Shown: positions 5,200-43,700 of the stretch, one piece after another
Layout of the letters: each line of letters starts with the position of its first letter
How positions within the stretch are numbered: the first letter of the stretch is position 1
Origin: a virus
IMG/VR virus record: IMGVR_UViG_3300017971_000082
Span: 1-50,081 of that record
DNA length: 50,081 nt
Reading direction: 5' to 3' (one strand)
Position numbers and translations under genes: made by a program
Notes under the pieces: model-generated
What the model was told of the DNA's origin: nothing
Databases searched by the model: none
What the model saw: only the letters and a program-made list of their open reading frames with translations

Positions 5200-8100
5200 A
5201 TGCCAGACCAGACGCCTTGGAGTCCAAGAGGGTACGACCCGAACCGCATCCGGCATAGCTGGAGTGGCGGGCGGGAGGAGATCGTCGGGGGCTACCGGCG
5301 CCTGATCTATGGGCTCTCTGACCAGGAGATCTTCGGCAGCCCGGAGCAGGCCCAGCAGTACGAGAACCAACTCTGGCAGCGGCTGAGCCTTCCGGAACAG
5401 CAGGCGCTGCGCAACGAGCGGTACGGGTTCTTCGAGCGGCTGAAGTACCTGCGCAACCTGCACACGACCCGGGGCGAGCGCCTGGCGACGGGTGCCGAGC
5501 AGGACAAGGGGCTCTTCGGGAGCCTGCGGGCTGCGGCTGGGGAGGTGGTCGGAGGAGTCGGCGCGCTGCCGGCGATCGCGGGCGGTCTCGCTTCGGCGGT
5601 CGGGCTGGAGAGCGTCGGCCGGGGGATCAAGTCCCTGATGTACGACGACCCGGGGATCAGCGCGGGCCAGGCGGCCAGGCGCACCCGGGACATCTTCCAG
5701 GGGGCCTTCGATCCTCGGTACCTGGAGATGGGGCTTGAGGGGCAGCGCGACTCCTCGGAGCTGCTGGCGACGGCGGTGCGCAAGAACCAGGAGCGCAAGC
5801 GGCTCGGGCTCCCCACCGAGATGGGCTCCGAGCTGATGGAGCGCGACATCGAGATTGGCCAGCGGGGCCAGGAGGTTGCGGCCAGGGGCGGGATCGAGTC
5901 AGTCGGTCGGACGGTCGGGGACATCGGAGCCCTGGTCCTGGGTACGAAGGGTCTGGGCATGGCGGCCGGGGCGGCCACGAAGGTCCCGATGGCTGGTGGC
6001 GTCTTGCGGGGCGCTGGAAATGCGGCACAGGCTCTGGGCAGGGGTGCCGTGGGGCGCGGCGCGGCGGGCGCGGCTTCCACAGGGGCGGCATTCGGTCTGC
6101 TCGGGGTTGGCCGGGAGGAGTCCTGGGGTGCTTTCCCACGGGAGTTCGCTTTCGGTGCGGGCATGCACGGGGCGGGGTCGCTTCTGGGAGGGTTCGGCGG
6201 CCTGATGCGTGGCCGTGCTCTTGGTGGGCAGAAGACCTTGGGGCTTTCTCCCGGCGTTTCCACCCAGGTCGGGACGGGGATGCAGCAGCTGAGCGGGCGT
6301 GCGCTGGCTCCGGCTGTTCGTGGCGGGCGGGGAGCTTCGGCCATTCGCGCGGCGGCGCGCGGCGGCGCGGAGACTGCCAAGCTGACGGCCGGCTCGGTGG
6401 CGGCGAACGTCTACGAGGCGGTGACGGATGAGGATCTGACGCTGGGCGATGCGCTCACCCGGACGCTCCATGAGATCCCGGCGCATGCGGTCTTTGGCGC
6501 GCTCTCGGCGGCGCGCGGAAGGAGCGGAGCCCTGCGGCCCGAGTCTGGAGGCAAGGCTTCCGAAGCCGAGAAGTACCGCCAGATGACAGAGGAGCCGCTT
6601 CCGAGAGCCCTACCGCAAAAGAGGGCTTTCGAGAGCATGAGTGCGTACCGCGAGCGGGTACGGCGCGAGGTTCCTGCGGTGCGCCAGCGTCAGATGTGGG
6701 CCGAGCGTGGGCGTGGTGGCGCCCAGGTGCAGGAGGGCGTGGTGCGCCGCACCGTTCCGGGGAGCATCCGCGCTGCGCGCCGGGGAATGGAGCCGCGCAC
6801 GAAGGACGAGTGGATGCGGGCGAGCGCCGAGCGTGTGAGCAAGGTGGAGCGCCAGGTCGGCGAGATGCGCAAGGCCGAGGACGCCCGCATGGCGCTGGCC
6901 GGCGAGCGGGGCCAGGAGTTCCGCAAGCAGGTGGATGCTCGGGTGGAGTTCGACCGCAAGCAGCGGGCTCAGGAGATCGCGGAGCGCCAGGGCTTCAAGG
7001 ATCCCGAGGCGATGGTCGAGGCCACCCGCCAGCAGGTGGTCGAGGTGTCTCGCCGGGCTGAGAGCCTGCTCGCAAACGAGATCCGCAACGTGACGGGTCC
7101 TCAGGTCGATGAATTCCGGCGCGAGATGGCGACGATGCTCTCGGAGCTGCGCCGGGACCTGCGCAAGCGGGGCGGGATCCACCAGGGTGTGATCACCAAG
7201 ATGTGGAACCGCACGCTGAAGAAGATCGAGGCGATCGATCCCACGCTTGCGGTCCGAGCCCAGGCCCAGATGGTGCGTGCGCGGGAGAAGAAGCAGCCCG
7301 AGCAGTGGAAGGCGTTCGAGCCGCCCAAGCCCAAGCCCGAGTTCATGCCCGAGACAGAGCTGCCCTACGAGGGGATGGAGAAGAAGCCCTCGGCTGAGAG
7401 CAAGCTCCCGGAGCCCGGGCGTCCCACCAGGGGCGCGGAAACGGCCCTTCCTCGGCCGCAAGATCTCGTCGGCTCAGAACCCGTGCCCGGGGAGATCGTG
7501 CGAGAGGGGCTGAAGCTGGCCTATCCGCAGAGCGCCAAGGGGCGCCGCTTCCTGACGAGGGAATCTGCTGCGTCCGCAGAGGGGCACGCGCGCTTCGTCG
7601 AGCAGTTCAAGGGCTCTCCGAAGGAGGTGGCCGGCCAGGCGCTGCTGCACGCCAGGCTGCAGGGGGAGGGGCTGCCGAGGAACACGAATGCGGTCCGGGG
7701 CGAGGAGACGTTCTGGGGCAAGGTGACCGAGAAGGCGGGCGTCGATGCCGGGACCTACTCGGATGCGCTGAAGCAGTACCGCAAGGCGGCCAACAAGGAG
7801 TACGGCAAGGCGGCGGGCGAGGCGACCAAGAAGGCGAAGGCCACCGGGGCGGCGGCGGATCACCTGAAGGGGTACCTGGCCGAGGCAGCCTACGGATCCA
7901 AGATCGGGGTCGATCACCAGGCCAGCCGCGAGAAGGCGATCAACGCGATTGCCCACCCGGCCGGCATGCTGAAGGACGAGTCGAACGCAGCCCACCGGGT
8001 GGCGAAGGCCCGGGAGATGGTGCGCGAGGCCGAGCTGGCGATGGGATTCCACGAGGGCCAGCTGTGGACCAACATCTCGTTCGCGATGGACGCTCGGGCG

Positions 8101-11100
8101 CGCAAGCTGGGCGTGTGGGAGGAAGGCACTCGCCAGCCCAGCGAGAAGCTCTACGAGGAGATGGTCAAGGGAGTCCAGGCCAAGGACACCTACGGCGTTT
8201 ACCCCTGGGAAACGATCCTGAACGAGAGGATCCGAGGCGAGTTCGAGGAGCGCATCCGGGACCGGGGCGATGCCGGTGAGGTTGGCGAGGGGCGCCGGCA
8301 GTTGGCCGGCGAGGCTGGCCGAGAGGTACCGCTGGAGCTGCGGCTGGGGATGGACACGCTCACCGGGTACTACCTCGGCGGCGGGATCAAGAGCGGCCTG
8401 GCCAAGGAGCTGGGGGTCACAGGGGATCTGCTGCGGTTCCAGAAGGCGGTCGCCGACAAACTGGTCGAGACCGGCCTGGCTACGAAGGGCGCCGGGGAGC
8501 ACGACTACCGCTGGACCGATCGCGGGATCGCGATGGTGAACGATCTCAGCAACTGGCTGAATTCAAACAAGCGGTACCGCAAGAACTTCCCCGAGTTCAG
8601 CCCACCGTGGAACGAGGCGGTCGAGCGGCCCTGGGACGTGCGCTGCCTGAGCCCGTGCGGGGCCTTCGATGGCAGCCAGCGCACCGTCGAGGCGACGGCG
8701 AAGCACGGGCTCTCGGAGGGCGAGGCGGATCGTCTCGTGGATCACGAGCCCCTGATGCGCGATCGCCTCATGGAGTGGGCGAAGGGTTCATGGCGCCGGA
8801 TCAAGGCCGGTGTCATGACGGACCCCACCGAGCTGAACGTCTACGAGCTGACCAAGACGCTCAAGGCCGACCCGAAGAACCGGGGCTGGATCCGGAAGAT
8901 GGTCCGCCACCAGTTCACCCCGCTGTGGCAGATCGCGCCTGGCCTGGTCCAGATCGGGGAGAAGGAGGGCACGCACTGGATTCTGCGCAGCAAGCAGCTG
9001 GAGAGCCTGGCGACCGAAGGGCTCGGGAAGGAGTGGGTCGAGGACAAGTCCTTCATCGATGGGAAGACTCAGCCGCGCTTCGAGCGGGTGATCGATATCG
9101 TCGAGGAGTACGGCAAGCTCAGCCACAAGGATCGCCTCGCTCGCATGGCCGAGATCGGCGAGGAGGATTGGGGCCGGGTCCAGGTGATCCGCACCGTCTT
9201 GAGGGAGATGCGCAAGGATATCGTCCAGCATCTCTACGATCCGATCCGGGTTGCGATCAAGCGGGCCAAGGCGACCGGCCAGAACGTGGACGAGGCAGTG
9301 GGCATCGACCTGCACTCGCTGGCTCCGCATCTCGGAGTACCGTTCGATCCGGTGAGCGGGTCGCGCATGGCCTGGGACAACAAGCTGCATCGGGAGTTCT
9401 TCCGGAACAAGAACATCCGCGTGATCGAGGAGGTGATGCAGGCGAAGGAGCTGCTGGAGCCCGGGGCGACCACCTTTGTGAAGCTCCCGAACGGGCAGAT
9501 GCTGGAGGTGACGGGCTACGGTGTGAGGGATTACTTCCCGCACGTCTGGATGAAGTACGACCTGAATCCCTTCCTCGCCCAGCAGTACAAGACGGACATC
9601 TCGGACACGACACCCGAGATCTTCGACGGGATGCCGACGATCAAGGGGCACCTGAGGGTCGCGAACGGGTACGCGAAAGATCCGCTCGTTCCCCAGGCCA
9701 AGCGGCGCAAGTTCGTTGCGAACTGGCTCCAGCGGCGGCTCGACCGGGACGGCTACGTGAAGCACCCGGCCGTGCTGATGATGTACCTGCGTGAGAGCTA
9801 CCGCAAGATCAAGCACGAGCGCGTGATGCAGCAGGGCGAGGACCACCTCCTCGGCGAGTACGCCCCGCTCGACATCTCGACCCCGGCTGCTGCGGGGAAG
9901 ATGCTCTACGAGTCCACGTCAGCGACCACCGAGCAGAGCTACAGTTCGATGGCCGGCCACGAGGTGGGCGGGAACCTGATGATGGAGGTGCGAGGCGTCT
10001 TCCCGCCGCGCTACGGCAAGCGGTTCCAGGCCAAGGGGCCTTGGAAGATGTACATCGTGCGCAACCAGACCAAGCTCGGGATGCGCGAGGAGGGATCCGA
10101 CAAATGGGGAGCCGACGACGTGATCGTGCTCCACCAGCCAGGCCCGATCAACCAGGCCAGCAACTACATCAAGCTGAAGGGGCGAGAGGAGATCCAGCGA
10201 GCGAGGCTCTTCGTGCGCAGCCGGGGCCTGATCCAGGGCATCACGGGCGTGGTGGAGAACAGCTTCCTGTGGGATCGGCTCGAAGAGATCGCCCGAGGCG
10301 GCGGCCCGAAGGACTGGAACGCGCGCAGGGGATTCCTCTGGCGCGCATGGGAGTCGATCGAGACGACGCTCGGCGCACTCGGGCACCACGCTGCGCTCGG
10401 TGGCGTGATCAACTCGCCCGCTGCGCAGATGAACCTGATCGAGGGGAACCTGGTCCTCAACGCAGCGACCAACGGGTTCCAGTCCGTCTCGGCTGGGTGG
10501 AAGACGATGCGTGGCTTCCTTCCGGCGGCGACCAAGCGGGTCCCGATGTACTGGAAGATGGCATCGGAGGGTAAGAGCCACCGGGAGATCTGGGATGCGA
10601 TCGCCAAGGACACGCTCGCCTCGGATCCGAACAACGCCTGGGCGAAGCACTACGAGCGCATCCTGAAGAAGAGCCCATATGATCTCGGCGGGATGCACGA
10701 GAAGAACATGTGGGCTGTCGATGTCGTCGAGGGGCAGGTCGGCAAGGAGGAATCCGCAGTCACCCAGGCGATGGTCGAGGCTCGCGACACAGCGGGGCGC
10801 TGGATCGTCAAGCACATCGACCCCAAGATGTTCACGTCCTTCGAGCTGAGCGAGCAGCACACCCGCCAGATGCTGTACATGACAGCATACGACCACTACC
10901 TCAAGCGATTCGGCAACGGGGCGGGCAAGGGCAAGGCTCCGTTCGTGAACCCGGAGACGGGCGAGCACTTCCGGGTGATCGAGGGCGAGGCGATGCGCCG
11001 TGACGGGACAGCCGAGAACCCGCACCTGCTGAGCGCGCACGATCTGGCCTTCGGCCAGGTGATGCGGACGCACTTCGTGTACAGGCTGGCGTACCACCCG

Positions 11101-12228
11101 GGCATCATGCGCTACCGGCCCTGGCGGATCTTCGGCCATCTCGGCTCGTTCGGCATGCTGCAGGCGATGGAGCGTGCGCGGGACGTGAAGGCGCTCTACA
11201 CGGTGCCGACCGGGCACGGGTTCCAGCAGCCGGACCTGGCTCGGTTCTCCCGAGGCGTGCGCCACATCGTCGCATCGTGGGCGCTCTACACGTTCATGGA
11301 TCAGGTTCTGGGCATGGACACCGGGAACTTCATCGGTGCTCACCCGAGCGATATCCCGGGGCTCTCGGAGATGCCCTGGGTCTATGGGATCCCGAATTCG
11401 ATCCGCTTCATCCCGGGCGGCATCCCCGCTGGCGTGTCCACGATGCCTGCGAAGATGGGTCTCGGCACGGTGCTCGGGGCGGGCCGCCTGTTCCAGGAGG
11501 TGGCGGCGGGTCGGAGCCCTTCGGATGCGATGAGCAACCAGGTGCGGATCTTCAAGGATCAGAACCGCACGTTCTTCCTGCCCTTCGACAACGGGTGGGC
11601 GATCCCGGGCGGGTTCCTCACGATCCCGTTCTCGCGCTCGATCATCGGCAGGATGGGCCAGATGCTCGAAGCGGACGTGCATCCGACCGATCGGGAGAAG
11701 CCTCTCCGGTTCGGCCCCTCATCCAGGCCGGTCTCGACCACCTACGCTGAGATGCTCAAGCGGGCGATCTTCCCCGGCTCCCCAAGCTCATGGTCTGAGG
11801 GCTATCGGACTTCTCGCTACCGTGAGGGCGGGCGGATGACTCGGCAGTACATCCGTGATGACCTGAGCCAGCGGTTCTTCCGTGCTGAGAACCAGCAGGA
11901 GATGCAGGAGATCTTCGAGGAGGCGAGCAACCTGGGGCTCGGTGACTTCGCAAACACGCTGAAGTCGAAGGCCAGGCTCTGGAGCTGGAGCCCGAAGGTG
12001 AGATCCTACTCGATCAGTGACCCGCTCCCGGTCAAGATCAAGAACGCGATCGAGGATGCGGACTCGCTCACGACACTGGAGCGGGCGAAGGTTCACGAGC
12101 TGATCTGGGGCAAGGGCACGCCGCTGATGAGCTTGCGCCCGTCGAAGCTGCGCGCCTTCGCCCAGATGCCTGGTCTACTTGATCTGATCAATCGCTACCG
12201 CAGGGAGTTCATGCTGCGAGAGCGATGA
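5200..12228 (+). CDS. Giant internal virion protein (2342 aa)
   Basis: Largest gene of the genome, about 14 percent of its length. The N-terminal third has several Ala/Gly-rich hydrophobic stretches (near residues 105-135, 225-310 and 390-425) that could insert into membranes. Next comes a long Arg/Glu-rich, coiled-coil-like region (about 460-720), a Pro-rich linker, then a long mixed region. The C-terminal third has aromatic-rich helices. I see no lysozyme or transglycosylase catalytic motif and no RNA polymerase motifs such as those of the N4 virion polymerase, although a divergent enzyme cannot be excluded. It probably enters the cell with the DNA. Its 3' end overlaps the convergent gene by 20 bases. 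Confidence 0.6.
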   Translation: MPDQTPWSPRGYDPNRIRHSWSGGREEIVGGYRRLIYGLSDQEIFGSPEQAQQYENQLWQRLSLPEQQALRNERYGFFERLKYLRNLHTTRGERLATGAEQDKGLFGSLRAAAGEVVGGVGALPAIAGGLASAVGLESVGRGIKSLMYDDPGISAGQAARRTRDIFQGAFDPRYLEMGLEGQRDSSELLATAVRKNQERKRLGLPTEMGSELMERDIEIGQRGQEVAARGGIESVGRTVGDIGALVLGTKGLGMAAGAATKVPMAGGVLRGAGNAAQALGRGAVGRGAAGAASTGAAFGLLGVGREESWGAFPREFAFGAGMHGAGSLLGGFGGLMRGRALGGQKTLGLSPGVSTQVGTGMQQLSGRALAPAVRGGRGASAIRAAARGGAETAKLTAGSVAANVYEAVTDEDLTLGDALTRTLHEIPAHAVFGALSAARGRSGALRPESGGKASEAEKYRQMTEEPLPRALPQKRAFESMSAYRERVRREVPAVRQRQMWAERGRGGAQVQEGVVRRTVPGSIRAARRGMEPRTKDEWMRASAERVSKVERQVGEMRKAEDARMALAGERGQEFRKQVDARVEFDRKQRAQEIAERQGFKDPEAMVEATRQQVVEVSRRAESLLANEIRNVTGPQVDEFRREMATMLSELRRDLRKRGGIHQGVITKMWNRTLKKIEAIDPTLAVRAQAQMVRAREKKQPEQWKAFEPPKPKPEFMPETELPYEGMEKKPSAESKLPEPGRPTRGAETALPRPQDLVGSEPVPGEIVREGLKLAYPQSAKGRRFLTRESAASAEGHARFVEQFKGSPKEVAGQALLHARLQGEGLPRNTNAVRGEETFWGKVTEKAGVDAGTYSDALKQYRKAANKEYGKAAGEATKKAKATGAAADHLKGYLAEAAYGSKIGVDHQASREKAINAIAHPAGMLKDESNAAHRVAKAREMVREAELAMGFHEGQLWTNISFAMDARARKLGVWEEGTRQPSEKLYEEMVKGVQAKDTYGVYPWETILNERIRGEFEERIRDRGDAGEVGEGRRQLAGEAGREVPLELRLGMDTLTGYYLGGGIKSGLAKELGVTGDLLRFQKAVADKLVETGLATKGAGEHDYRWTDRGIAMVNDLSNWLNSNKRYRKNFPEFSPPWNEAVERPWDVRCLSPCGAFDGSQRTVEATAKHGLSEGEADRLVDHEPLMRDRLMEWAKGSWRRIKAGVMTDPTELNVYELTKTLKADPKNRGWIRKMVRHQFTPLWQIAPGLVQIGEKEGTHWILRSKQLESLATEGLGKEWVEDKSFIDGKTQPRFERVIDIVEEYGKLSHKDRLARMAEIGEEDWGRVQVIRTVLREMRKDIVQHLYDPIRVAIKRAKATGQNVDEAVGIDLHSLAPHLGVPFDPVSGSRMAWDNKLHREFFRNKNIRVIEEVMQAKELLEPGATTFVKLPNGQMLEVTGYGVRDYFPHVWMKYDLNPFLAQQYKTDISDTTPEIFDGMPTIKGHLRVANGYAKDPLVPQAKRRKFVANWLQRRLDRDGYVKHPAVLMMYLRESYRKIKHERVMQQGEDHLLGEYAPLDISTPAAAGKMLYESTSATTEQSYSSMAGHEVGGNLMMEVRGVFPPRYGKRFQAKGPWKMYIVRNQTKLGMREEGSDKWGADDVIVLHQPGPINQASNYIKLKGREEIQRARLFVRSRGLIQGITGVVENSFLWDRLEEIARGGGPKDWNARRGFLWRAWESIETTLGALGHHAALGGVINSPAAQMNLIEGNLVLNAATNGFQSVSAGWKTMRGFLPAATKRVPMYWKMASEGKSHREIWDAIAKDTLASDPNNAWAKHYERILKKSPYDLGGMHEKNMWAVDVVEGQVGKEESAVTQAMVEARDTAGRWIVKHIDPKMFTSFELSEQHTRQMLYMTAYDHYLKRFGNGAGKGKAPFVNPETGEHFRVIEGEAMRRDGTAENPHLLSAHDLAFGQVMRTHFVYRLAYHPGIMRYRPWRIFGHLGSFGMLQAMERARDVKALYTVPTGHGFQQPDLARFSRGVRHIVASWALYTFMDQVLGMDTGNFIGAHPSDIPGLSEMPWVYGIPNSIRFIPGGIPAGVSTMPAKMGLGTVLGAGRLFQEVAAGRSPSDAMSNQVRIFKDQNRTFFLPFDNGWAIPGGFLTIPFSRSIIGRMGQMLEADVHPTDREKPLRFGPSSRPVSTTYAEMLKRAIFPGSPSSWSEGYRTSRYREGGRMTRQYIRDDLSQRFFRAENQQEMQEIFEEASNLGLGDFANTLKSKARLWSWSPKVRSYSISDPLPVKIKNAIEDADSLTTLERAKVHELIWGKGTPLMSLRPSKLRAFAQMPGLLDLINRYRREFMLRER

Positions 12229-13660: not shown

Positions 13661-14271
13661 TGAGGGGCTCCTCGGTTGGCTCGCTGCTGGCGCGAGTCGA
13701 AGACGTGCTCTCGCTTGTCGGGCTTCTGGTAGAGCGCGAGCCCGAAGGACCAGCCCAGGTTCGAGGCTGCCCGCTTGAAGGCGTCCGACTCTGCCCCCTT
13801 GCAGGCCATGTCGATGGGGCTCTCGCGATCCGTGAAGTGAATCGCCCTGGCTCCCTCGGGTGCATCCTGCGGTACGTGGGGGTTCGCCGTGCCGGTGCAG
13901 AAGCCTGTTCCGGTGTGGCAGGTCTCGCGGCCATCGGCCCACCGGATGATGAGCTTCACCTTGCAGATCCAGCCGCACCGATACACGGGCATGCACCGCT
14001 TGGTCTGGTAGTCCTGCTTGAGCCCGATCTCGCCGAACACCTCGGTGGGTCCATCGACGGTCTCGCTCGACCAGCCATGCGGCCCGAAGATCTCATTCAG
14101 GCGGGCTCGGACGTAGACGTGCTCCACGTAGTCCATCTGCTGGCCCGCTCGGCCCTTCTGCTCGCAGACGGCCATGTCCAGGCTCTCCTGGCACTTCTTG
14201 CGTTGCCAGAGAACCATCTGCTCGGGAGTCCATTCGGGACTCTTGGTCTCGGTCTTCTGTTCTTCGCTCAT
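13657..14271 (-). CDS. Rad52/Rad22-like single-strand annealing protein
   Basis: 204 aa. The motif VYVRARLNEIFGPHGWSSE (about 52-70) is the characteristic Rad52-type N-terminal block in which the neimFG-WS pattern recurs. A central beta-rich part (CKVKLIIRWADG) follows, then the conserved helix MACKGAESDAFKRAASNLG (about 154-172), matching the KA-x-TDA-x-KRA-x-x-FG block of the family. Such proteins bind ssDNA and anneal complementary strands. Start ATG overlaps the stop of the adjacent exonuclease gene (TGATG), a usual pairing of annealing protein with nuclease in phage recombination. Replication or genome circularisation by annealing is inferred. Confidence 0.75.
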   Translation of the reverse strand: MSEEQKTETKSPEWTPEQMVLWQRKKCQESLDMAVCEQKGRAGQQMDYVEHVYVRARLNEIFGPHGWSSETVDGPTEVFGEIGLKQDYQTKRCMPVYRCGWICKVKLIIRWADGRETCHTGTGFCTGTANPHVPQDAPEGARAIHFTDRESPIDMACKGAESDAFKRAASNLGWSFGLALYQKPDKREHVFDSRQQRANRGAPQ

Positions 14272-15335
14272 CACTCGGCCTCGGGGATGGGCGCATCGGG
14301 CCGCTGGATGCGGATGAGGCGCTCTTCCTTGGTGGGGGTGTACATCCCGGCGTTCTCCCAGCACCAGGCACGAGAGGGGCAGAAAGCGCAGCCGCCATTC
14401 GGGCTCTTGGGAAGCTCCGGGTCGGTGGTCTTGGTCTTCTGCTCGGGCTGGAATCCACGGGGAAGGGTGTTCTTCCCGCTCTTCCATGCCCAGAAGGCGC
14501 TCTCGAAGCCTCTGTAGCACTCTCGGGCCAGGTTGGCCTGGTACTCGAAGGCAAGCCCTCGGCGCACCTGGGACTCCTTGGCGAGGCCAATCAGGCAGGC
14601 TGTGTCGAGCGGCCCGTCGATCGTGCCGTCTGAGATCAGCCGGGTGAGAGCCTTCTCTCCTGTGCAGTTCTCCTCGTGAGGCAGCTCTTCGAGGAGCACG
14701 GCACCGTTGGAGACGGCCTTGTACTCCTCAGGCGTTTCAGGGGCTCTCTGCCTGGAGCGGACGAGGTAGCCGTGGTTGAGCAGGTGGATGCCCATGTTCG
14801 CCTGGCAGACGGCTCCCGGGTTGGGCTCAGGAGAGCGCCTGTTGCCCTTGCGGTCGTTGCGGTACATCCACTTGTCGATCTCGTACTTCGTGCCGGTCTT
14901 GTACTCCAGCACGGCCTGCGTGTCGGGGCAGATGCGGATGATCCCGTCCAGCTTGCCGGTGACGTAGATGGTGACCGCGTTGGCGCTGAGAATCGGGAAA
15001 ACCAGTTTTAGCTGGGTGCCGCGAACTTCCACACCGGATCCGACCAGATCCCCGTAGAGCGCGGCCTCCTCCATGTCACCTGTGCGGAAGACGGCCTGAG
15101 AGCGCCAGTCGTTCACCTCGAAGAGGCCCATGAGCTGATACGTGATGCGCCTTGGGCAGAGCAGCGCCCAATGCGAGCTTGAGGCCCAGAGCCCATGTGG
15201 GAGCCCGTCTTCGAGCCTCTTGATGGCCTTCTCCCACTTGGACAGGGCGATGCCTGCCAGGTGGTCTTCCATCTTGGCGATGGGGTTGTTCTCCATCTCG
15301 ATGAGCGGGAGGAAGTTGATGTTCGCTAGGTCCAT
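14271..15335 (-). CDS. Cas4/RecB-like Fe-S PD-(D/E)XK exonuclease
   Basis: 354 aa. Nuclease core: Asp130 in VTGKLDG and E144-x-K146 in VLEYKTG, the RecB-type PD-(D/E)XK motif. Four cysteines, Cys60 (in LLCPRRITYQL) and Cys316, Cys319, Cys325 (CxxCx5C near the C-terminus), match the arrangement that holds an iron-sulfur cluster in Cas4, AddB and Dna2 nucleases. It probably resects DNA ends to give ssDNA for the Rad52-like partner encoded directly downstream. Start ATG 15335 has AGGAG 5-6 bases upstream and lies after a hairpin-rich leader. Confidence 0.8.
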   Translation of the reverse strand: MDLANINFLPLIEMENNPIAKMEDHLAGIALSKWEKAIKRLEDGLPHGLWASSSHWALLCPRRITYQLMGLFEVNDWRSQAVFRTGDMEEAALYGDLVGSGVEVRGTQLKLVFPILSANAVTIYVTGKLDGIIRICPDTQAVLEYKTGTKYEIDKWMYRNDRKGNRRSPEPNPGAVCQANMGIHLLNHGYLVRSRQRAPETPEEYKAVSNGAVLLEELPHEENCTGEKALTRLISDGTIDGPLDTACLIGLAKESQVRRGLAFEYQANLARECYRGFESAFWAWKSGKNTLPRGFQPEQKTKTTDPELPKSPNGGCAFCPSRAWCWENAGMYTPTKEERLIRIQRPDAPIPEAE

Positions 15336-15350
15336 TTCATCTCCTGTAGG

Positions 15351-15390
15351 GCCTTGCCAGTATGCCAAAGCGTTAGCCACCTGGCAAGGC
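15351..15390 (-). promoter_or_regulatory. Leader hairpin before the exonuclease gene
   Basis: Perfect 10-bp inverted repeat, 15351-15360 (GCCTTGCCAG) against 15381-15390, with a 20-base loop, directly upstream of the ribosome binding site of the exonuclease gene in the minus-strand transcript. There is no T-run, so a processing, stability or attenuation role is more likely than a simple terminator. Confidence 0.5.
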
Positions 15391-15996: not shown

Positions 15997-16020
15997 GGAG
16001 CCTGGCAGGCGCCAGGCTCC
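15997..16020 (-). terminator. Strong hairpin between leftward genes
   Basis: Perfect 10-bp stem GGAGCCTGGC (15997-16006) with its complement 16011-16020 and a 4-base loop. It follows the stop of the DUF932-like gene and precedes the leader of the 165-aa gene on the minus strand. The tract after the stem is CCCTTC, not a U-run, so it may be a processing or stability element instead of an intrinsic terminator. Confidence 0.5.
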
Positions 16021-24071: not shown

Positions 24072-24390
24072 GAACAAGAACCCAGAACCGAAACCCTCAG
24101 AGGCGAACGAGCGCATCCGCCAGGCCCGCGCCGAGCTGCTCCTGAGCCTCAAGCCACAGGTCGAGAAGATGCAGTCCGGAGGGCTCTCGTCCGTCCAGGT
24201 GCTTCACCTGCTCCAGAACGTCCTGGCCGCCAACATGTTCGATGCCCGAGCTTCGGCCTCCAACCAGGCGGTCGCTGGCCTCCTGAGGGTCACGACCGAG
24301 GGGGCGCACTTCATGGCCGACGTGAAGGCCCTGCAGGAAGCCGTCGATGACGCGCTGAACCAGGCGACCGGCGGGGCGGCAACCAGATGA
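24061..24390 (+). CDS. Possible small terminase subunit
   Basis: 109 aa, start ATG 24061 with GAGGA just upstream; overlaps both neighbours (terL start by 4 bases). Almost entirely helical: a basic, Pro-rich N-terminus, then helices rich in Ala, Leu and Gln (ARAELLLSLKPQVEKMQSGG, QVLHLLQNVLAANMF). The size, helical content and position directly before terL fit a small terminase (DNA recognition for packaging), but no HTH or known terS signature can be claimed. Confidence 0.45.
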   Translation: MIGRNKNPEPKPSEANERIRQARAELLLSLKPQVEKMQSGGLSSVQVLHLLQNVLAANMFDARASASNQAVAGLLRVTTEGAHFMADVKALQEAVDDALNQATGGAATR

Positions 24391-25496
24391 GGATCGAACC
24401 CGACGACCTGATCACGTTCGGCCCGTTCATGGGGTTCGGCCACGACGAGGCTCGCGAGTTCGTCGAGCGCGTCGAGTTCCGCATCCGCCGGGAGCACGAC
24501 CCGGCCCTGATCCGCAACGAAGCCTTCATCGACCTGTCGAAAAACCGCCCCCTCGAAGATCTCATCCAGCGGTGGATCTGGGTCAACTCGAAGTTCACCG
24601 GCCACACCGCGCTGCGCATGGACATGCCCCACGCTTGGGCGCAGCTCGAAGTCGTCCGCTACATCGACAAGTGCTGGAAGGACGGGCGACCGTGCCGCAT
24701 CGTGATCCTCAAGGCCCGCCGCCTGGGCATGACCACCATCTTCGTCTGCGTCTTCTTCCTCATGGCCTCGGTCATGGAGCGCATGGACTCCCTGATCATC
24801 TCGGACATCGACGAGCACGCCCGCAAGGCGAAGGACATGGCCGTCTACGCCCTCGATCACATGGTCTACGGGCCGCGATGCAAGGCCACCAAGGAAGGGA
24901 TCAAGTGGCCCAAGCCGCAGTACGGCAACCTGGACATCGAGTCCTCCGAGGGGCGCAACCCCGGGCGCGGCCTGGGTTACAACATGGTGCTCTTCGACGA
25001 GGTGGCCCACTACGTCCGGGACGCCAACAAGATCGTCTCCGACGTGATCGCCGCCGTGCCCAAGTCCGGGTTCAGCCTCATCGCCCAGAATTCCACGCCC
25101 AAGGGGGCCGGCGGGCACTTCTATCGCCTGTACCGGCGCGCGAAGAAGGAGGAGTCCGAATACAAGCACTTCTTCTTCTCCTGGCTCCGGCATCCGGCTT
25201 ACGCGATCCCGCTGCGCGATGAGGACTACCCGCGCTTCGAGAAGCTCTCCGAGCGCGAGACCTCGCTCATGGAGCACCACGGGATGAACCTGGAGCAGGC
25301 GAAATTCCGTCGCTTCGTCGTGGATACCGAGTACAACGGGCAGGAGGAGATCTTCGATCAGGAGTACCCGGTGGACGATATCTCCTGCTTTCTCCGGGCT
25401 GGCCGGCCGGTTTTCGACCCGGATACCATGTTGCTGGTTGACCAGCGCGTGTCTAAGATCGAGCCCGTCTTGCAAGGCGATTTAGTCGAGATCTGA
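24387..25496 (+). CDS. terL: Large terminase, ATPase domain (N-terminal half of a split terL)
   Basis: 369 aa. Walker A-like KARRLGMTT (109-117), where RRLGMTT is the terminase-type variant; Walker B VLFDE (201-205) with the catalytic Glu; coupling motif QNSTP (234-238). This is the DNA-translocating motor that packages the genome through the portal. A typical TerL has 550-650 residues, and this one ends right after the interdomain linker (KIEPVLQGDLVEI, then TGA). The RNase H-like nuclease domain follows 305 bases later as a separate frame. Start overlaps the upstream stop (ATGA). Whether the halves act as two subunits or are joined is open. Confidence 0.85.
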   Translation: MRIEPDDLITFGPFMGFGHDEAREFVERVEFRIRREHDPALIRNEAFIDLSKNRPLEDLIQRWIWVNSKFTGHTALRMDMPHAWAQLEVVRYIDKCWKDGRPCRIVILKARRLGMTTIFVCVFFLMASVMERMDSLIISDIDEHARKAKDMAVYALDHMVYGPRCKATKEGIKWPKPQYGNLDIESSEGRNPGRGLGYNMVLFDEVAHYVRDANKIVSDVIAAVPKSGFSLIAQNSTPKGAGGHFYRLYRRAKKEESEYKHFFFSWLRHPAYAIPLRDEDYPRFEKLSERETSLMEHHGMNLEQAKFRRFVVDTEYNGQEEIFDQEYPVDDISCFLRAGRPVFDPDTMLLVDQRVSKIEPVLQGDLVEI

Positions 25497-25513
25497 CTCA
25501 GAGAGGTACCATC

Positions 25514-25729
25514 ATGAAAGGCTCAGGCGCCGCAACCCATCGCTCCGGGGCGCACTTCGACGATCGGGGCTACACCGCCCACAACTCGAAGTGTTCTCCC
25601 CCCACCTCGGGCAAGGAGAGCCACTCCTTCCCCACCCCCTCGCCGAGCGATCACTGCAACCCGAGGCTCGGGCAGTTCAAGGACGTGGCGTCCTCGGGCC
25701 AGCCGGCCGGGAAGACCAAGACGTTCTAG
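25514..25729 (+). CDS. 71-aa protein inside the terminase interruption, unknown
   Basis: Start ATG 25514 has GAGAGG 7 bases upstream, a better ribosome site than that of the nuclease half. The product is low in hydrophobic residues and rich in Ser, Pro, Gly, His and Lys (CSPPTSGKESHSFPTPSPSD), so it is probably disordered. Its frame is the same as that of the nuclease half: only the TAG at 25727-25729 separates them, followed by 24 sense codons before ATG 25802. No resemblance to homing endonucleases (no HNH or GIY-YIG motif). Could be a small virion or packaging factor. Confidence 0.5.
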   Translation: MKGSGAATHRSGAHFDDRGYTAHNSKCSPPTSGKESHSFPTPSPSDHCNPRLGQFKDVASSGQPAGKTKTF

Positions 25730-25733
25730 GCTC

Positions 25734-25754
25734 GCCGGACTTCGCTACTCCGGC
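25734..25754 (+). other. Small hairpin after the 71-aa gene
   Basis: GCCGGA (25734-25739) pairs with TCCGGC (25749-25754), loop 9 bases. It precedes the stronger hairpin at 25763-25797 and may form one structured element with it. Confidence 0.4.
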
Positions 25755-25762
25755 TCATCTCC

Positions 25763-25797
25763 AGAGCCCTACCGGAGATTCGGGCCGGTAGGGCTCT
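25763..25797 (+). terminator. Perfect 13-bp hairpin just before the nuclease half of terL
   Basis: AGAGCCCTACCGG (25763-25775) and its exact complement 25785-25797 flank a 9-base loop; the tract TCTT follows. It has the form of a rho-independent terminator but ends only 4 bases before the next ATG, and the right arm contains AGGG, the only Shine-Dalgarno-like sequence for that gene. It could therefore terminate transcription, hide the ribosome site, or mark a processing boundary. Confidence 0.65.
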
Positions 25798-25801
25798 TCT
25801 T

Positions 25802-26656
25802 ATGGCATTCAAGGTCGTACCCCACCCAGACAGCCCGCTTCAGGTCTGGTTCCCACCAGACAACAAGCGGCTCTACTCGATCGGCGTCGATGTCAGCGAC
25901 GGGGGCGGGCACGGCAGCCGGTGGGGAGCCGACGCCTTCGGATCACGGCCAGCCGCTTCGACCGTCGTGGTCACCGATGCCGCCACCCGGATCCAGTGCG
26001 CGGAGTATCAGACCTGGAGCCTGCTGCCGCGCGATCTCGGGATCCTCGTCGCCCGCATGGGCCGCTGGTACAAGGGGCGCGAGACCGAAGCCTTCTGCGT
26101 GATCGAGGCCAACAAGAGCGGCATCTCGACCATCGACGCGATGCGCTACGAGGAGGGCTACTCGAACCTCTACACCCGCAGGACGTTCGATTTCGTGGCC
26201 CAGAAGTTCTCGAACAAGATCGGCTGGGAGACCACCCAGAAGACCCGGCCGGTCCTGGTGAACATCGCGAGAACCGCATACAAGGAGCTTCCGGAGATCG
26301 TCATGTCCCAGAGGCTGCAGGAGGAGATCCGATCCTTCCTGTTCCAGGAGACATCCCCAGGCTCCGGAGACTTCCGCCCCATGCACGCTCCGGGCGAGCT
26401 GGATGATCTGGTCATCGCCTGGGGACTCTCGCTGTTCGGCTGCGACTACGCCCTCGCGTCACAGCCCGAAGATCGCCCCAAGCTGGACGAGCCCCCCGAT
26501 GCCTGGGCCTGGAAGGCCACAGACCGGATACTAGACGGGCAGCGCCAGCAACGGCAGTATGGCCACCTGTACTCAGAAGACGAGCAGCCGATGGCTGCGG
26601 ACACCGAGATCATCGAGCCCGGCCAGATGCAGGTCCCGGCTTGGATGTGGGAGTAG
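25802..26656 (+). CDS. terL: Large terminase, nuclease domain (C-terminal half of a split terL)
   Basis: 284 aa. RNase H-like fold typical of TerL: YSIGVDVSDGG with Asp30 and Asp33 on the first strand, CVIEANKSG with Glu102, and GELDDLVIAWG with Asp201/Asp202 in the last helix, giving the metal-binding acidic residues that cut the concatemer. The N-terminus (MAFKVVPHPDSPLQVWFPPD) is the usual strand leading into the nuclease domain, so nothing obvious is missing between this and the ATPase half. No good independent ribosome site: AGGG is buried in the hairpin upstream. It may be a separate nuclease subunit or the 3' part of an interrupted gene. Confidence 0.8.
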   Translation: MAFKVVPHPDSPLQVWFPPDNKRLYSIGVDVSDGGGHGSRWGADAFGSRPAASTVVVTDAATRIQCAEYQTWSLLPRDLGILVARMGRWYKGRETEAFCVIEANKSGISTIDAMRYEEGYSNLYTRRTFDFVAQKFSNKIGWETTQKTRPVLVNIARTAYKELPEIVMSQRLQEEIRSFLFQETSPGSGDFRPMHAPGELDDLVIAWGLSLFGCDYALASQPEDRPKLDEPPDAWAWKATDRILDGQRQQRQYGHLYSEDEQPMAADTEIIEPGQMQVPAWMWE

Positions 26657-26984: not shown

Positions 26985-29039
26985 ATGCTCGGTGGGCTCA
27001 TGGACACCGTGGGGTTCGGCAACAGCTCGAAGTCCTACCACCCGAAGTACATCCCCAAGCCCTCGGAAGAGCGCGTCCTCAACCTGGTGAAGGAACGCTG
27101 GGAAGGCGACATGGACGCCTCGCGCCAGCAGTTCGAGCGGATCTGGTTCAACGCCGCTCAGATCTACCAGGGGGACTTCTCGGGCTTCTGGAACACCGCC
27201 ATGCGGCATGTGGAGAAGACTCCGGTGCCGTCGTGGCGCAAGCGGTACATCGCGAACAAGATCCTGCCAGCGGTCAAGCGTGCCGTCTCGATGACGGTAG
27301 GCACGGGCGCCAGGCCCTCGGTCGTCCCAGGCGGCCCAGGCAAGCTCCACCGGGACCGCGCCAAGCTCGCCGAGAAGATCTGGGAGTCCTACGCCCGCAA
27401 GAAGAAGTTCGTCACCAAGCAGCAGTACGGGGCTCTCGTCGCCTGCTGCTCGGGCACCGTCCTGTTCAAGCCCTTCTGGGATCCGGCCAAGGGCAAGATC
27501 GTCGGGATGAAGGGCAACCGCATCGTCACCGAGGGAGACGTGGACTGGAAGGTCGTGAGCCCGCTGAACTTCTACCCCGAGCCACAGGCCAAGAACATCG
27601 AGGAGTGCCAGTACGCCTTCCACACCTACATGATGTCGATCGATGCGATGCGGCAGCGGTGGAAGAACGCCGAGTACGTGCGGCCGGACTCTGGCGACAC
27701 GGGCACGCGCGGATGGATCGAGAGGCGCATGCGCTCGATCTCCTCGGCCGGCTCGATCATCACCGAGCCCGCCACGCGCCGGGGCCGCCAGTACGCCACC
27801 GTCGTCGAGATGTGGATCCGCCCGAGCCCGGACGTTCCCAGGGGCATGTTCGCGGCCGTCTCGAACAACGTGGTCCTGGAGCACGGGCCGAACCCTGGCC
27901 TCGGACTCGACGAGGAGCGGGTTCTGGAGATCCCCTTCATCAAGTACGACTGGTTCGAGGGGTACGAGCGGTTCTGGGGCGTGGGCCTGGTCGAGCTGCT
28001 GGATCGGATCAGCCGGGAGGAGAATTCGACCAAGAGCCGGATCATCGAGGCCGCCATCCTCATGGCGCATCCGATGTGGCGCGCTCCCAAGCAGAGCGGC
28101 CTCGGGGATGTCGTCGGCTTCCCGGGCCAGATCCTGAAGTACAACCCGGCCTTCCCGCCGCCCGAGGTCGTCCAGCCGCCCGAGATTCCAGCCTACGTCA
28201 TGAACATGCCCGCGATGTTCGACCAGGACTTCAAGGACGTTTCGGCGCAGCACGACGTGACCCAGGGCCAGGCGTCGAATGCACGCACCGGCACGGCCAT
28301 CCAGCTGCTCCAGCAGCCAGACGAACTGGTTCACTCGACCGGGCGCATGCGCTTCTGGGAGGCAAGCTCGGACATCGCGCGCAGCTTGCTGGTCCTGATG
28401 AAGGAGAACTACACCGAGCAGCGGATCGCCGAAGTCGCCGGCCCCAACGACTCCTGGCAGATCATCGCCTTCCGAGGGGGCGACCTGGACAAGTCCACCA
28501 ACATCCGGTTCGTCATGGACACGAGCCTCGGGCTCACGAGAGCCTCTCGTCTCGGGATCCTCTCGGACCTGATCAACCTCCAGGCGATCAACATGGGCGA
28601 CCCCTTCGAGCGGCGCCATGCGGTTCGCATGCTGGAGTCCAACGATCTCGACCAACTCTTCAGCTCGCTCACGATCGCCGAGCGCGAGGCCGAGGAGGAG
28701 ATCGCCATCATGTCCCAGGTGAGCGAGGGGCTCCCGCCCAGGATCCCGACCTTCCCCTGGCAGGATCACGTCGTCCACGTCCGGCTCAAGAACGAGTTCC
28801 GGATGACCCCCGAGTACAAGATGCTGCCAACGGTCGTGCGGCAGCTGTTCGATGCGAACGTGATGGAGCATGAGATGCTCATGCTGCAGCAGCAGCAAGT
28901 CATGCAGCAGCAGCAGATGGCCACGCGCGGGATGCCCGGCGAAGTCGGGACCCCCTCCCCCCCGAAGAACAGCAGCAAGCCGCCGGGCGGATCCCAGCAG
29001 AGCGGGTCTGAGGCCCGGCCGCAGGCAGGAGTGGCATGA
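26985..29039 (+). CDS. Portal protein
   Basis: 684 aa, start ATG with AGGAGG 8-9 bases upstream. Position directly after terminase, length and pattern fit a podovirus/P22-type portal: N-terminal region with W-x-x-x-x-x-x-A-x-x-Y (IWFNAAQIYQGDF), a wing with KPFWDP and VSPLNFYPEP, and a helical stem, then a Gln/Met-rich C-terminus (LMLQQQQVMQQQQM) that would form the barrel or crown. Portal dodecamers make the DNA entrance at one capsid vertex and dock the terminase. The stop overlaps the next start (ATGA). Confidence 0.8.
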   Translation: MLGGLMDTVGFGNSSKSYHPKYIPKPSEERVLNLVKERWEGDMDASRQQFERIWFNAAQIYQGDFSGFWNTAMRHVEKTPVPSWRKRYIANKILPAVKRAVSMTVGTGARPSVVPGGPGKLHRDRAKLAEKIWESYARKKKFVTKQQYGALVACCSGTVLFKPFWDPAKGKIVGMKGNRIVTEGDVDWKVVSPLNFYPEPQAKNIEECQYAFHTYMMSIDAMRQRWKNAEYVRPDSGDTGTRGWIERRMRSISSAGSIITEPATRRGRQYATVVEMWIRPSPDVPRGMFAAVSNNVVLEHGPNPGLGLDEERVLEIPFIKYDWFEGYERFWGVGLVELLDRISREENSTKSRIIEAAILMAHPMWRAPKQSGLGDVVGFPGQILKYNPAFPPPEVVQPPEIPAYVMNMPAMFDQDFKDVSAQHDVTQGQASNARTGTAIQLLQQPDELVHSTGRMRFWEASSDIARSLLVLMKENYTEQRIAEVAGPNDSWQIIAFRGGDLDKSTNIRFVMDTSLGLTRASRLGILSDLINLQAINMGDPFERRHAVRMLESNDLDQLFSSLTIAEREAEEEIAIMSQVSEGLPPRIPTFPWQDHVVHVRLKNEFRMTPEYKMLPTVVRQLFDANVMEHEMLMLQQQQVMQQQQMATRGMPGEVGTPSPPKNSSKPPGGSQQSGSEARPQAGVA

Positions 29040-31159: not shown

Positions 31160-32599
31160 ATGGCGGGCATCGACGAAGCATACGTCGGAGCAACCAGAGC
31201 CGCGTACCAGGCGGCCCTGAAGGATTACTACCTCCCGTCCATCATCGTCACGTTCAACTCTTCGACGGTGCTCTACTACCGCGCGGAGAAGTCGAGCGAG
31301 CCGGTGGTCGGCGGGACAATCCAGCTCCTCCTCAACACCAAGCGGTCCGAGGGCTACGGCTCCATCCGCTACGGTGGACGCATCCCGGATCCCGATCGCC
31401 AGGGATACACCCGGATGCAGTTCCCGATCCGCTACCACTACGCGCGGATCAAGGTCCCGGGGCCGCTCATGGCCGAGACCCGCGATCCGGCGGGTGCGTG
31501 GGGCGAGGTTGTCGATCTCGAAGTCACGGGTGTTTCCCGCGACGAGAAGAACGACATCAACCGCCAGCTCTTCAACGACGGCTCAGGCCGCCTCGCGATC
31601 GTCACCGACGCCACCCAGCAGGCGGCCGGCATCCTGCAGCTGCGCGAGGTCTTCGACCTGGCCGACCAGGCGCCGGACGTGATGACCGTTCGCGACGGCA
31701 TGATGGTTGCAATCGTGGATGCCTCGGTTTCCACGACCAGCCCGGTCGCCGCGAACATGTTCGACGACATGAGCGGTACCGGCATTCGCCAGGCGATCGT
31801 TGGCAACACCGACCCGCAGGCGAAGACCATCACGCTCTTCCCCATCGACACCTCGACGGGCGGCCCCCAGGGCACCCCGTACACCCTCGCAGGCGTGGCG
31901 GCCGGTGATGCGATCGTGCGCGTCCACGTGCGCGACAACAACATCCGGACTTCCAGCGCCCTGTTGGACGAGTGCGCGTACCGCCACTCGACCGCTCCGG
32001 CGACCGACGAGGGCGCCTCGGGTCGCGAGATGATGGGGCTCGCCGGGATGGTCAGCGCGCAGGACGTGTTCTGCGGCTACAACCTCGGCGCGGTCACCAC
32101 CACGGGTCTCCAGAACATCTCGGTTGCCTCGGGCAACCCGTTCTGGAAGGCGTTCACGATCGACTACGGCGCAGCGCCGCAGCCGCTCGACCTGAACGAC
32201 ATGCAGACCTGCGTGGACCAGATGGAGCGCCTGGGCCAGGCGTTCTGCACCCTGATCGTCACCTCCTACGGTGGCCGCCGCGCGTACCTGCGGACCTTCG
32301 CAGCCGAGCGCCGCTACCCCGACGTGATGGATCTCGACGGCGGCTTCAAGGCTCTCAGCTTCAACGGGCTCCCGCTGGTGCCCGAGAAGGACTGCACGGC
32401 CGGCCGCTTCTACTTCCTGGACGAGACCACGCTTCTGATCGCTCGCATGAGCGAGTGGTTCTGGCTCGCCCGCGACAACGCCATCCTGCACCGGCTCGAC
32501 GACTACGATGCCTGGCAGGCGACCCTCGCGTACTACGCAGACTACTGCCTCCGCAAGCGCAACGCGCTCGCGGGCCTCTTCGGTGTACAGGAGAGCTAG
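31160..32599 (+). CDS. Major capsid protein (HK97-like fold)
   Basis: 479 aa. Gene order (portal, scaffold, this gene), length and a mixed alpha/beta composition with long spine-like helices and many short strands fit an HK97-fold capsid protein of the podovirus type. A mid-protein strand-rich section (about residues 205-265, with TLFPIDTSTGGPQGTPY) may be an inserted domain. Ribosome site AGAGGAA. Identification rests on context and pattern; no direct comparison was possible. Confidence 0.7.
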   Translation: MAGIDEAYVGATRAAYQAALKDYYLPSIIVTFNSSTVLYYRAEKSSEPVVGGTIQLLLNTKRSEGYGSIRYGGRIPDPDRQGYTRMQFPIRYHYARIKVPGPLMAETRDPAGAWGEVVDLEVTGVSRDEKNDINRQLFNDGSGRLAIVTDATQQAAGILQLREVFDLADQAPDVMTVRDGMMVAIVDASVSTTSPVAANMFDDMSGTGIRQAIVGNTDPQAKTITLFPIDTSTGGPQGTPYTLAGVAAGDAIVRVHVRDNNIRTSSALLDECAYRHSTAPATDEGASGREMMGLAGMVSAQDVFCGYNLGAVTTTGLQNISVASGNPFWKAFTIDYGAAPQPLDLNDMQTCVDQMERLGQAFCTLIVTSYGGRRAYLRTFAAERRYPDVMDLDGGFKALSFNGLPLVPEKDCTAGRFYFLDETTLLIARMSEWFWLARDNAILHRLDDYDAWQATLAYYADYCLRKRNALAGLFGVQES

Positions 32600-39689: not shown

Positions 39690-40732
39690 GTACAGCAGTA
39701 ACCCTTCGAGAGCTTGTAATCGACCAGGCCAGCGGGTCCTACACGGGACTCGCAGGCGAACTGTGGCTGTTGCCCGAGACGGGGGACTCGCGGGACAAGG
39801 CGATCCTCAAGGGGCTGGAACTCGTCGAGCCGGTTGCTGGACTCGGGCCTGTCATCCTCCGACTGTTCGACGTGAACGCTCTGGCGAGGGAGGCAGCAAC
39901 GATCACGTTCTCTGCCCAGCCGGCGGACACGAACCTTCTCACCTACACGGATCCATACCACACGGCTGTCATCTTCGAGTATGACAGCACGGGAGCCTTC
40001 ACTGCTGGGCGCCAGCCGGTCTTGATCGGATCGACGTTCTACGAGACGGCCAGGAACACCTATCTGGCCATCCTTCGGAACATCGAAGATGGGGTGATGC
40101 CTGGTATCGCTGCGATCGTTCCGGAGAGCATCACGCTCGGGGCTGCTGGAGTGGACACCCATACCCTGACGGTGACGGATGGGACCACGACCTACATCTT
40201 CGAGCTGGACAACAACGGAGCCTGGACGGCTGGGAACATCCCGGTGCCGATCGGAGGGACGGCAGCCGCGACGACCGCGAACCTCCTCGAACTTCTGAAG
40301 TCGTGCTTCCCGAACAACGAACTCGTCACCCATTCGATCGACCCTGCCGCGCCCGGGAAGATCTGGATCCACGGTGTCCAATGTACGGTTGGCGGTGCGA
40401 CGTTCACCGTGACCAGGCCGATTGTCACATTCCGGACGCTGCTTCCTGGATCCACTGCGCAGCATGGTGGGGGCACAGGTCTTTTCGTTGCGGGCGCGGC
40501 ATCGCCCGTTGTCGCGACCGCAGGCGGCGCCGCTCTCCCTGGCGCGGTCATCGCTGCCGAGTATGGTCTCTATCATCCTGGAGACATCCTCGAAGTGAAT
40601 CGTCAGTTCGACGGAGGGATCTTCGCCCAGGTCACGACCGGAGCGAACGCGCGAGTGAAGCTCCTCTTCGAGTACATGGGACAGGGCCGCCTCAGTGGCC
40701 GGACCTACGGCAAGTCCACAGCGCAGTATTGA
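39686..40732 (+). CDS. Virion protein with two copies of the TxxNL module
   Basis: 348 aa, ATGA overlap. Two copies of the shared beta module: about 39895-40140 (EYDSTGAFTAGRQPVLIG then YETARNTYLAILRNI) and about 40150-40420 (FELDNNGAWTAGNIPVPIGG then TTANLLELLKSC). The DNNGAWTAGNIPVPIG and DSTGAFTAGRQPVLIG strands are clearly duplicates. C-terminal part is Gly/Ala-rich beta. Likely a tail or baseplate-type component; function unknown. Confidence 0.6.
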   Translation: MSTAVTLRELVIDQASGSYTGLAGELWLLPETGDSRDKAILKGLELVEPVAGLGPVILRLFDVNALAREAATITFSAQPADTNLLTYTDPYHTAVIFEYDSTGAFTAGRQPVLIGSTFYETARNTYLAILRNIEDGVMPGIAAIVPESITLGAAGVDTHTLTVTDGTTTYIFELDNNGAWTAGNIPVPIGGTAAATTANLLELLKSCFPNNELVTHSIDPAAPGKIWIHGVQCTVGGATFTVTRPIVTFRTLLPGSTAQHGGGTGLFVAGAASPVVATAGGAALPGAVIAAEYGLYHPGDILEVNRQFDGGIFAQVTTGANARVKLLFEYMGQGRLSGRTYGKSTAQY

Positions 40733-40733
40733 G

Positions 40734-43700
40734 ATGACGCATGAGCCCCCCTACCAGGACCACCCGATCCTTCCAGGTCGGGGAGGACTCGACACGGAGA
40801 CCGATGCGGCACTGATCGACGCAACGCGGTCTCCCGACCTGGAGAACATTCACTTCTCCAAGCAGGCCATCGAGGGGGCTTTCGGCAGCCGCAAGCTGCA
40901 CCGTTACCTGCCACGCCTGGCGGGCGTGCGCTCTCTCCCGAGACCCATCGTGCGGGTCGCCGCCCAGGCCAGGATCGATCAGGTCCCGCACAGCGTGATC
41001 CCGTATGTGGCCGAGCAGCAGCTGGCTGCGACGGATGACATGCAGATCGACGTGTCCTTCCGCCTGAACGGGAGCTACCCGTACACCCTCACCGGCCGGG
41101 ACCAGACCGAAGATTCTGTCTCGACGCCTCCTAAGAGCGGGAAGATCAATGCTCCGGCCGGTGGGGAATTTCAATTCCAGCCTCTCGCTCAGCGTGGTGG
41201 GACCGACATCGAGGAGCTGATCTGGGTTCTTGGGCTCGCGATCATCCGGCCCGAGGGTTACAAGACCGCCAGCGGCACGCCAGACACGGCGGTCGATGCT
41301 TCTCAGAAGGATGTGATCTTCCCGGTCTTCTACTGGTGGAGCGAGGCCGACCGGCGGATGAAGTTCGCGGCAGCGAACACCTACCTGGTCCCGGGCTTCG
41401 ATTACCACCTGAGCCTGCAGATCGGAAAGCAGACGACCGGAACCTCGGCCTGGTACCTGACCGGGCCTGGCGGCGAGACGGTGGCTCTCGGGGAAGTGCC
41501 GGTCGGAGATGGCGCCACGTTGCTCCCCCTGATGGACGACATCTCGCGCGACCGCAAGAACGCGATCTACCTGTGCCGTCCGATGATGCGCGACACGGGG
41601 GTGTGGCCGGACGCGCCGCTGTTCCGTGGGCACTACGGGGTGACGGCCCAGGCGTACACGTCGAATGCGCTGGCCGAGGATGACGTGCAGATCAACGATC
41701 TCGCGCTTCCGGGTGTCGGGGCTAACTCTTACGTCCACTACTACCTGCGCGTGAACGACCCGGGGAACGCGAACGATGGGGAGATCCGGCGCATCACGAC
41801 CTACAACGGGTCGAACTCGGTCAAGATCGGCGCAGACATGCCGAACCCTGCGGCGATGGTGGGGGCAACGGTGGATGTCATCCCGCCGATGGAGTGTTGC
41901 CCGCAGGATGTGGTCCTTTCGGAGCTTCGGCTGTGGAACACCCATCTCACCCAGGCTCAGATTCAGTCGCTCGCGGGGTGGAGGTTCGGTACTGACCTGA
42001 CTTCCGCTGAGCCCTTCAAGAATCTGGGGGGCTCTGTGCTGGGGGATGACGCGAAGTACCTGATCGGGTACTGGCCGCTCTCGGAGGACGGCGGGACGCT
42101 GCTGGAGGATCTGGGGCCGCGCAAGAACAACGGCTGGATGAGCGGCTCGGTGAAGCACCGCTCGGCGCGAGACGGCACGGTGAGCCTGGACGGGGATCGG
42201 GTCTCGATCCAGATGGACCTGGGCGAGGACATCGAGCGTCACCCCGCGCTGAGCTTCAATCTGGGCGAGGACGGCTACCGGCTGCACTACCGGCTCACGT
42301 ACCAACTGTGCCGGGACATCGTGAACCGGGCGGTCTGGGCGATCCAGGTGCTGAACGCTGGCACGGACACGGACACGGTGACGGTCCAGGACGGGGCGGG
42401 CGGCTCGGAGACCTTCGAGATCGACGACACGGGGGCGGTGACACCTGGCAACGTCGCGGTAGACATCCTGGGGCCGCCGGCCTCGCTGAACGCCGAGGAG
42501 ACCGCGAGCCGGCTGAAGACAGCGATCGACTCTGCGATCGGCGGCACGCTGGGATCTCATCTCTCGACGGAGGTTTCGGGCTCGGTGGTCTACGTCTACT
42601 CGAACGACGTGGACTTCCCCTTCCCGGCGATCGCCTTCAGCGAGACAGGCTCGACCTTCTCGGTGCGTGAGGCGCCCGAGCGGGGCTACTACGAGACGAT
42701 CCACGACTTCGACAACCCCAAGGGCACGACGCCCGAGCCGATCCTGAGCCTGCGCTGGACGAAGGTGAACGGGAACCGCTGGCTCTACTTCCTCTGGCAC
42801 AACGGGGTCGCGACCTACATCGTGCCCGTGGATCGGACCTTCGCCTTCCCGGTGATCGGTCAGCGTGTGAACGCGCTGTTCGGGATCCACAAGGGGACGG
42901 GCTCTGCGAACGATCACCGCTTCTACTACTTCGTGAGCAACGGGGCGGATGCGGTCCAGGGCTGGTCCGAGACCGTGAACCTGGCGACGGACGTGCTGCC
43001 TGGGACATTTGCTGTCCCGGACTCCGACAAGAGCCGCCTCAGCATCGGGGCTTCGATCGTCGGCGAGCCCACGATGGGGAGTGGCCAGAAGAACGCCTGC
43101 CTAATGCGGGTCTGGGAATTCTGGGTGGGCTTCCGTCCATTTATGAACCTGGTCGGGAGCCCGACACTGATCCGGTTCCCAGCAATCGACCCCTGGACGA
43201 CGCTGGACCGCGTTCTCGCTCCGGCCGACGTGATGCCCGTGATCGCCGCCGATGCGTCCACGGTGGCCCTGGAACAGGGCTCGACGGTCTTCTCACCGAC
43301 ATCGGGCCAGAACTTCAGCACGAGGCTCGACTCGTACCCCACGAAGTACCTGCTGCTCTTCCCGGGCGTGCCGACTCTGCACCTGGAAGAGGATCGCTCT
43401 CAGCGAACCGAGGTGCGCCTGGCTGCGGTCGATGCCATGACACTCGCGGTAGGGACTTTCGCATCCCCCTGGGACCGGGGGACTCTTGCCAGCGCGGAAG
43501 CCCGGGTGGCCGCTTACCTCTGGGGGACGGACTTCGAGGCGGCCACCCCCTTCTTCCGGATCCAGACCGCGCTCGGCCAGGACGTGATCGATCCCGAGAC
43601 GCCGGAGCCCGGGTACGGCTACGAGCCCGAGGAGATCAACCTGTCCTCGATCCCGCCGGACGGGGAGGATTGGGCGCTGACCGAGCTGTACCAGGACAAG

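Follow-up and report, generated by a model that had tools for sequence, protein, structure and literature searches.

The large terminase locus of the analyzed window, a linear metagenome-derived IMG/VR virus record of 50,081 bp, consists of separate genes for the two TerL domains, a predicted small gene between them and a hairpin, all on the plus strand. The ATPase domain is encoded by a gene of 369 aa (24387..25496) and the nuclease domain by a gene of 284 aa (25802..26656, stop TAG). As the original prediction had stated, the ATPase frame terminates with TGA (25494-25496) inside the interdomain linker, its C-terminal end being GDLVEI, and the nuclease opens at 25802 in a different frame; the two products add up to 653 aa, and 305 bp lie between them (25497-25801). 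The packaging-module context is given by the portal protein gene on the same strand (26985..29039; Pfam P22_portal, 1.9e-12; phrog_156, 1.6e-29), and the major capsid protein gene (31160..32599, plus strand; phrog_14242, 1.7e-43) served as the anchor for finding relatives.

The ATPase half matches the PHROG terminase family phrog_2 TerL (5.8e-12), and the ATPase family profile built in this analysis matches the T4 gp17 ATPase 2o0h (2.9e-18). Its AlphaFold model (pLDDT 77) has the T4 gp17 ATPase 2o0j as the best fold match (1.7e-11). The domain carries Walker A and B and motif C, as a TerL ATPase does, in the form of a deviant Walker A (ILKARRLGMTT), a Walker B (NMVLFDE) and a motif C (NSTPKG). 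The nuclease half matches a terminase family in PHROG (1.2e-4). Since the window nuclease on its own had no PDB match by sequence, its link to gp17 rests on the nuclease family profile, also built in this analysis, which matches the RB49/T4 gp17 nuclease 3c6a (1.9e-16), and on the fold: the AlphaFold model (pLDDT 73) adopts an RNase H fold with T4 gp17 3cpe as the best match (1.7e-9), and the G20c nuclease 5m1p is matched as well (5.5e-7).

The three catalytic acidic residues of the RNase H-fold nuclease are in place, the triad D30, E102 and D201/D202 being invariant in an alignment with 10 homologues. The claim that all acidic residues of the nuclease are retained thus holds for the triad and fails at position 51, where the window has Ala and all other aligned nucleases (10/10) have Asp. 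This position lies outside the triad; it is that of the acidic residue in the GD-Y/S motif that follows the first strand, and its column would correspond to an Asp that is reportedly important in T4 gp17. Window-specific extra residues adjoin A51 near the nuclease active site (nuclease residues 33-53). Given the replacement of a conserved Asp and the long branch of the window TerL, a partial loss of nuclease function is possible.

The position of the cut was compared with that of the domain boundary in unsplit relatives. The match of the ATPase domain HMM ends 2 residues before the stop codon and that of the nuclease HMM starts at residue 1, whereas in 33 unsplit relatives the median distance between the two matches is 5 residues. 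The terminase is therefore cut exactly in the linker with zero residues lost, and the earlier view that nothing essential is missing at the junction is borne out. Direct repeats of 6 bp or longer flanking the 305-bp segment were not found.

The segment proved to be more than an insert with a small ORF and a perfect hairpin, although both of these predicted features are there. The 71-aa ORF (25514..25729), rich in G, S, T, P, N and Q, is preceded by a Shine-Dalgarno-like AGAGAGG (25500..25506; anti-SD duplex of -7.8 kcal/mol). Its GC content by codon position is 0.52/0.61/0.89, and its codon log-likelihood of 0.111 per codon exceeds that of every off-frame window and, among windows of true genes, ranks at the 8th percentile. 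Because these are real coding statistics, the segment looks like an expressed small gene rather than a chance ORF in an insert. Database relatives of the 71-aa product were absent from Pfam, PHROG and the pattern scans, and the predicted lack of a homing endonuclease was confirmed, as Pfam and PHROG yielded no nuclease motif of this kind in the intervening ORF. A small basic protein (~96 aa, RFGEQG...KARH...YW) is conserved near TerL or portal in many relatives (L007, L123, L112, L093 and others); homology of the 71-aa ORF to this RFGEQG-type protein was considered and is unsupported.

The hairpin (25763..25797) has a 13-bp stem and a 9-nt loop and ends 4 nt short of the nuclease start codon ATG. 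No other perfect hairpin in the window is as long, and just one more, at 15997-16020, reaches 10 bp or more. The nuclease gene has a single SD-like stretch, with which the hairpin overlaps, and a weak T tract follows the hairpin on the 3' side.

The closest relative found is L107, an IMG/VR metagenome contig of 7.2 kb that was obtained by scanning with the capsid protein and not with the terminase. Its capsid protein is 38% and its nuclease 33% identical to those of the window, identities for the portal protein and both terminase halves range between 28 and 33%, and no relatives closer than 38% by capsid were found. The layout of L107 is that of the window, with the ATPase stop at 939, a 69-aa ORF at 1035-1244 and a nuclease starting from GTG at 1241. 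The 69-aa ORF has a strong SD and a gene-like codon score (0.369 vs. a gene median of 0.433); its stop overlaps the nuclease start, it lies in a different frame from the nuclease, and there is no room for a hairpin like that of the window. The small ORFs of the window and L107 are no more similar than shuffled sequences (0.73 of shuffles reach the score).

Single-gene terminases prevail among the other relatives. Scans with the ATPase profile yielded 80 relatives (22-33% identity); in all of them (80/80) the ORF that contains the BLAST match is as long as a normal TerL, and the nuclease match, where present, is in the same ORF as the ATPase. Jasmine, Shocker and DS1 have single-gene terminases with no split, as do, by annotation, the Bacillus phages BSP7, Mel-JY34 and Youna2. 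Nucleotide BLAST of terL in phages gave no matches, no close kin emerged from exact-pattern scans for which the two terminase halves, the portal and the small ORF were used, and two scans of bacterial and archaeal genomes found no relatives. Among all loci fetched, a survey by HMM identified 112 single-ORF terminases and 11 split ones, namely those of the window, L107, L024 (ctLwi270), L112 (its ATPase cut by the contig end), L123, L132, L161, L162, L188, L189 and L190. Small ORFs between the halves were also found in L024 and L132, and the small proteins at this place in the window, L107, ctLwi270 and L132 are ~60-85 aa long. In L161, L162, L123, L188 and L189 the open frames of ATPase and nuclease abut or overlap, the overlap in L162 being a 4-nt ATGA. 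Another split is possibly represented by L165, where a stand-alone terminase nuclease ORF (153-860) lies near the contig start, 3' of an unrelated-looking ORF. TerL-like regions in the Bacteroides phages PQ571277 and PQ571269 and in MW354676 (BSTP8) are annotated as tail spike or sheath, probably by misannotation.

On a 49-taxon TerL tree built from both domains, the split state requires 3 changes, compared with 8.4 on average when the labels are shuffled, and all 3 are forced by starred, well-supported branches. Joining the window and L107 with the L162 clade was rejected by the AU test (p-AU 0.0007), and L024 with L132, placed far from the other split lineages, make up a third case. The window and L107 come out as sisters with moderate support (88/45); the branch of the window TerL is long. 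Based on the three forced changes, the AU rejection and the distant L024 and L132, the separation of the domains is recurrent and, judged by its distribution on the tree, arose independently in two or more further groups of phages, the count covering changes of state irrespective of their direction.

A TerL usually has both domains in one polypeptide; in the window and L107 they are found in separate ORFs; a complete ATPase and a complete nuclease in neighboring separate genes are what the window shares with ctLwi270 and the L162-type contigs. The locus thus very probably encodes a stable two-gene large terminase. This would probably be a functional enzyme of two parts, not an intron-bearing or erroneous gene, because the closest relative is alike and the same state evolved separately in other groups. 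A terminase of two polypeptides explains both the split in L107 with a different gene in the gap and the overlapping halves elsewhere. Of the two options originally proposed, a two-subunit terminase is supported by L107 and by two other independent lineages, and a shared split in relatives, one of the signs originally named for a stable two-gene terminase, is seen in these contigs as far as can be read from their genes; removal or bypass at the RNA or translation level found no support. On the other side, the window and L107 are both metagenome sequences, and L107 comprises only 7.2 kb.

In the two-gene terminase, a terL that is usually a single gene in this family would have been divided at the linker between motor and cutting domains, with a small gene placed between the parts. 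ATPase and nuclease would be translated separately, the small ORF from its own SD and the nuclease from the ATG at 25802. The ATPase would serve as the portal-docked motor, and the nuclease would bind it non-covalently to cleave the concatemer when packaging begins and when it ends. More speculatively, the hairpin might lower or time nuclease synthesis, either as an attenuator or by hiding the weak SD. According to a rather unlikely proposal, the small protein would be a third subunit, linking ATPase and nuclease or regulating them, and domain separation would recurrently bring in such a bridging protein.

The possibility that no working packaging enzyme is made, with terL decaying, recently disrupted by insertion of a small gene or misassembled, appears quite improbable. 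The metagenomic assembly, the loss of the conserved nuclease Asp (A51) and the long TerL branch would fit it, but both frames are intact with gene-like codon usage, and the same split is seen in the independent contig L107 (~30% identity) and in nine other loci, so that a shared assembly error or recent damage is ruled out. Removal of a self-splicing intron of ~305 nt (group I, group II or of unknown type) from the terL mRNA, which would yield a single TerL, is very improbable. The insertion point is precise with the flanking coding sequence intact, the segment folds somewhat better than shuffled sequences (z -2.5), and self-splicing introns are known in phage genes, as a paper on Bastillevirinae reportedly describes. 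Nonetheless, the covariance-model search with Rfam found no family match in the 305-bp segment, including group I and II introns at E-values up to 10, in line with the predicted absence of a group I core. The segment is a coding gene by its codon statistics, phage-like codon usage being seen in both the window and L107; the latter has a different small coding gene at this site that overlaps the nuclease start, and in the clade with overlapping genes there is nothing to splice or bypass, since the halves abut or overlap. Programmed recoding to a fused protein, by bypass or by a -1 frameshift into the small ORF with TAG readthrough, has hardly any likelihood: frame 2 has no stop between 25457 and the TAG at 25727, nor from 25730 on into the nuclease, so that the small ORF shares the nuclease frame at a distance of one TAG and 24 sense codons with the hairpin between them, but L107 does not conserve this, its small ORF and nuclease using different frames, TAG is also the ordinary stop of the nuclease gene itself, and we know of no precedent for a translational bypass of ~300 nt.

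With respect to known systems, the window resembles T4/RB49 gp17 (3cpe, 2o0h, 3c6a) by profile, fold and the pattern of the catalytic triad; T4 gp17 is one polypeptide, whereas the window has two domain genes with a third ORF between them. The uncultured podovirus ctLwi270 (MW202554, Manatee Spring) has, like the window, two ORFs, both annotated as 'terminase large subunit', and the system is therefore not categorically new, as such an arrangement already exists in a public record. In ctLwi270, however, the TerL belongs to a different family (phrog_38) with an ATPase ORF of 551 aa and an independent origin on the tree; the 62-aa ORF between its halves overlaps the nuclease start and has no detectable similarity to that of the window. 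The IMG/VR contigs L123, L161, L162 and L188-L190 are similar to the window in having separate genes for the ATPase (~340-370 aa) and the nuclease (~245 aa), and differ from it in that these genes abut or overlap with no gene between them and, by the AU test above, in their independent origin. Actinobacteriophage annotation also distinguishes by name between the ATPase and nuclease genes of the terminase. Two terL-related genes were described in the Arthrobacter cluster AT phages KitKat and KellEzio, the passage on them leaving unstated whether they are two halves of TerL (PMC5513430). In the Enterococcus phage iF6, terL is broken by inserted genes (PMC10054541); these are VSR endonuclease genes that leave a 95-aa fragment, and no break at the domain boundary is described. 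A literature search of limited coverage, which took in few subscription journals, found no description of a terminase stably split between its domains.

DNA-packaging models treat the motor and the nuclease as one flexible polypeptide. If the two-gene reading is true, independent natural separations, including those with overlapping genes, would mean that the covalent link between motor and nuclease is dispensable. An associated C-terminal nuclease is considered universal in tailed phages in a review of jumbo phages (PMC7824862). The split terminases could then serve as natural systems for motor-nuclease coupling, for the need of a nuclease per motor subunit and for the setting of the nuclease dose.

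Outside the packaging module, the window contains several other conspicuous ORFs. Two very long ones (2342 and 886 aa; 5200-12228 and 2536-5196) have no PHROG or Pfam matches, and two adjacent giant ORFs of 1337 and 1370 aa (40695-44708 and 44711-48823), which lie 3' of the structural genes, have no Pfam match. An ORF on the minus strand (14271-15380) matches the Cas4-domain exonuclease family phrog_1990 (1.1e-10).
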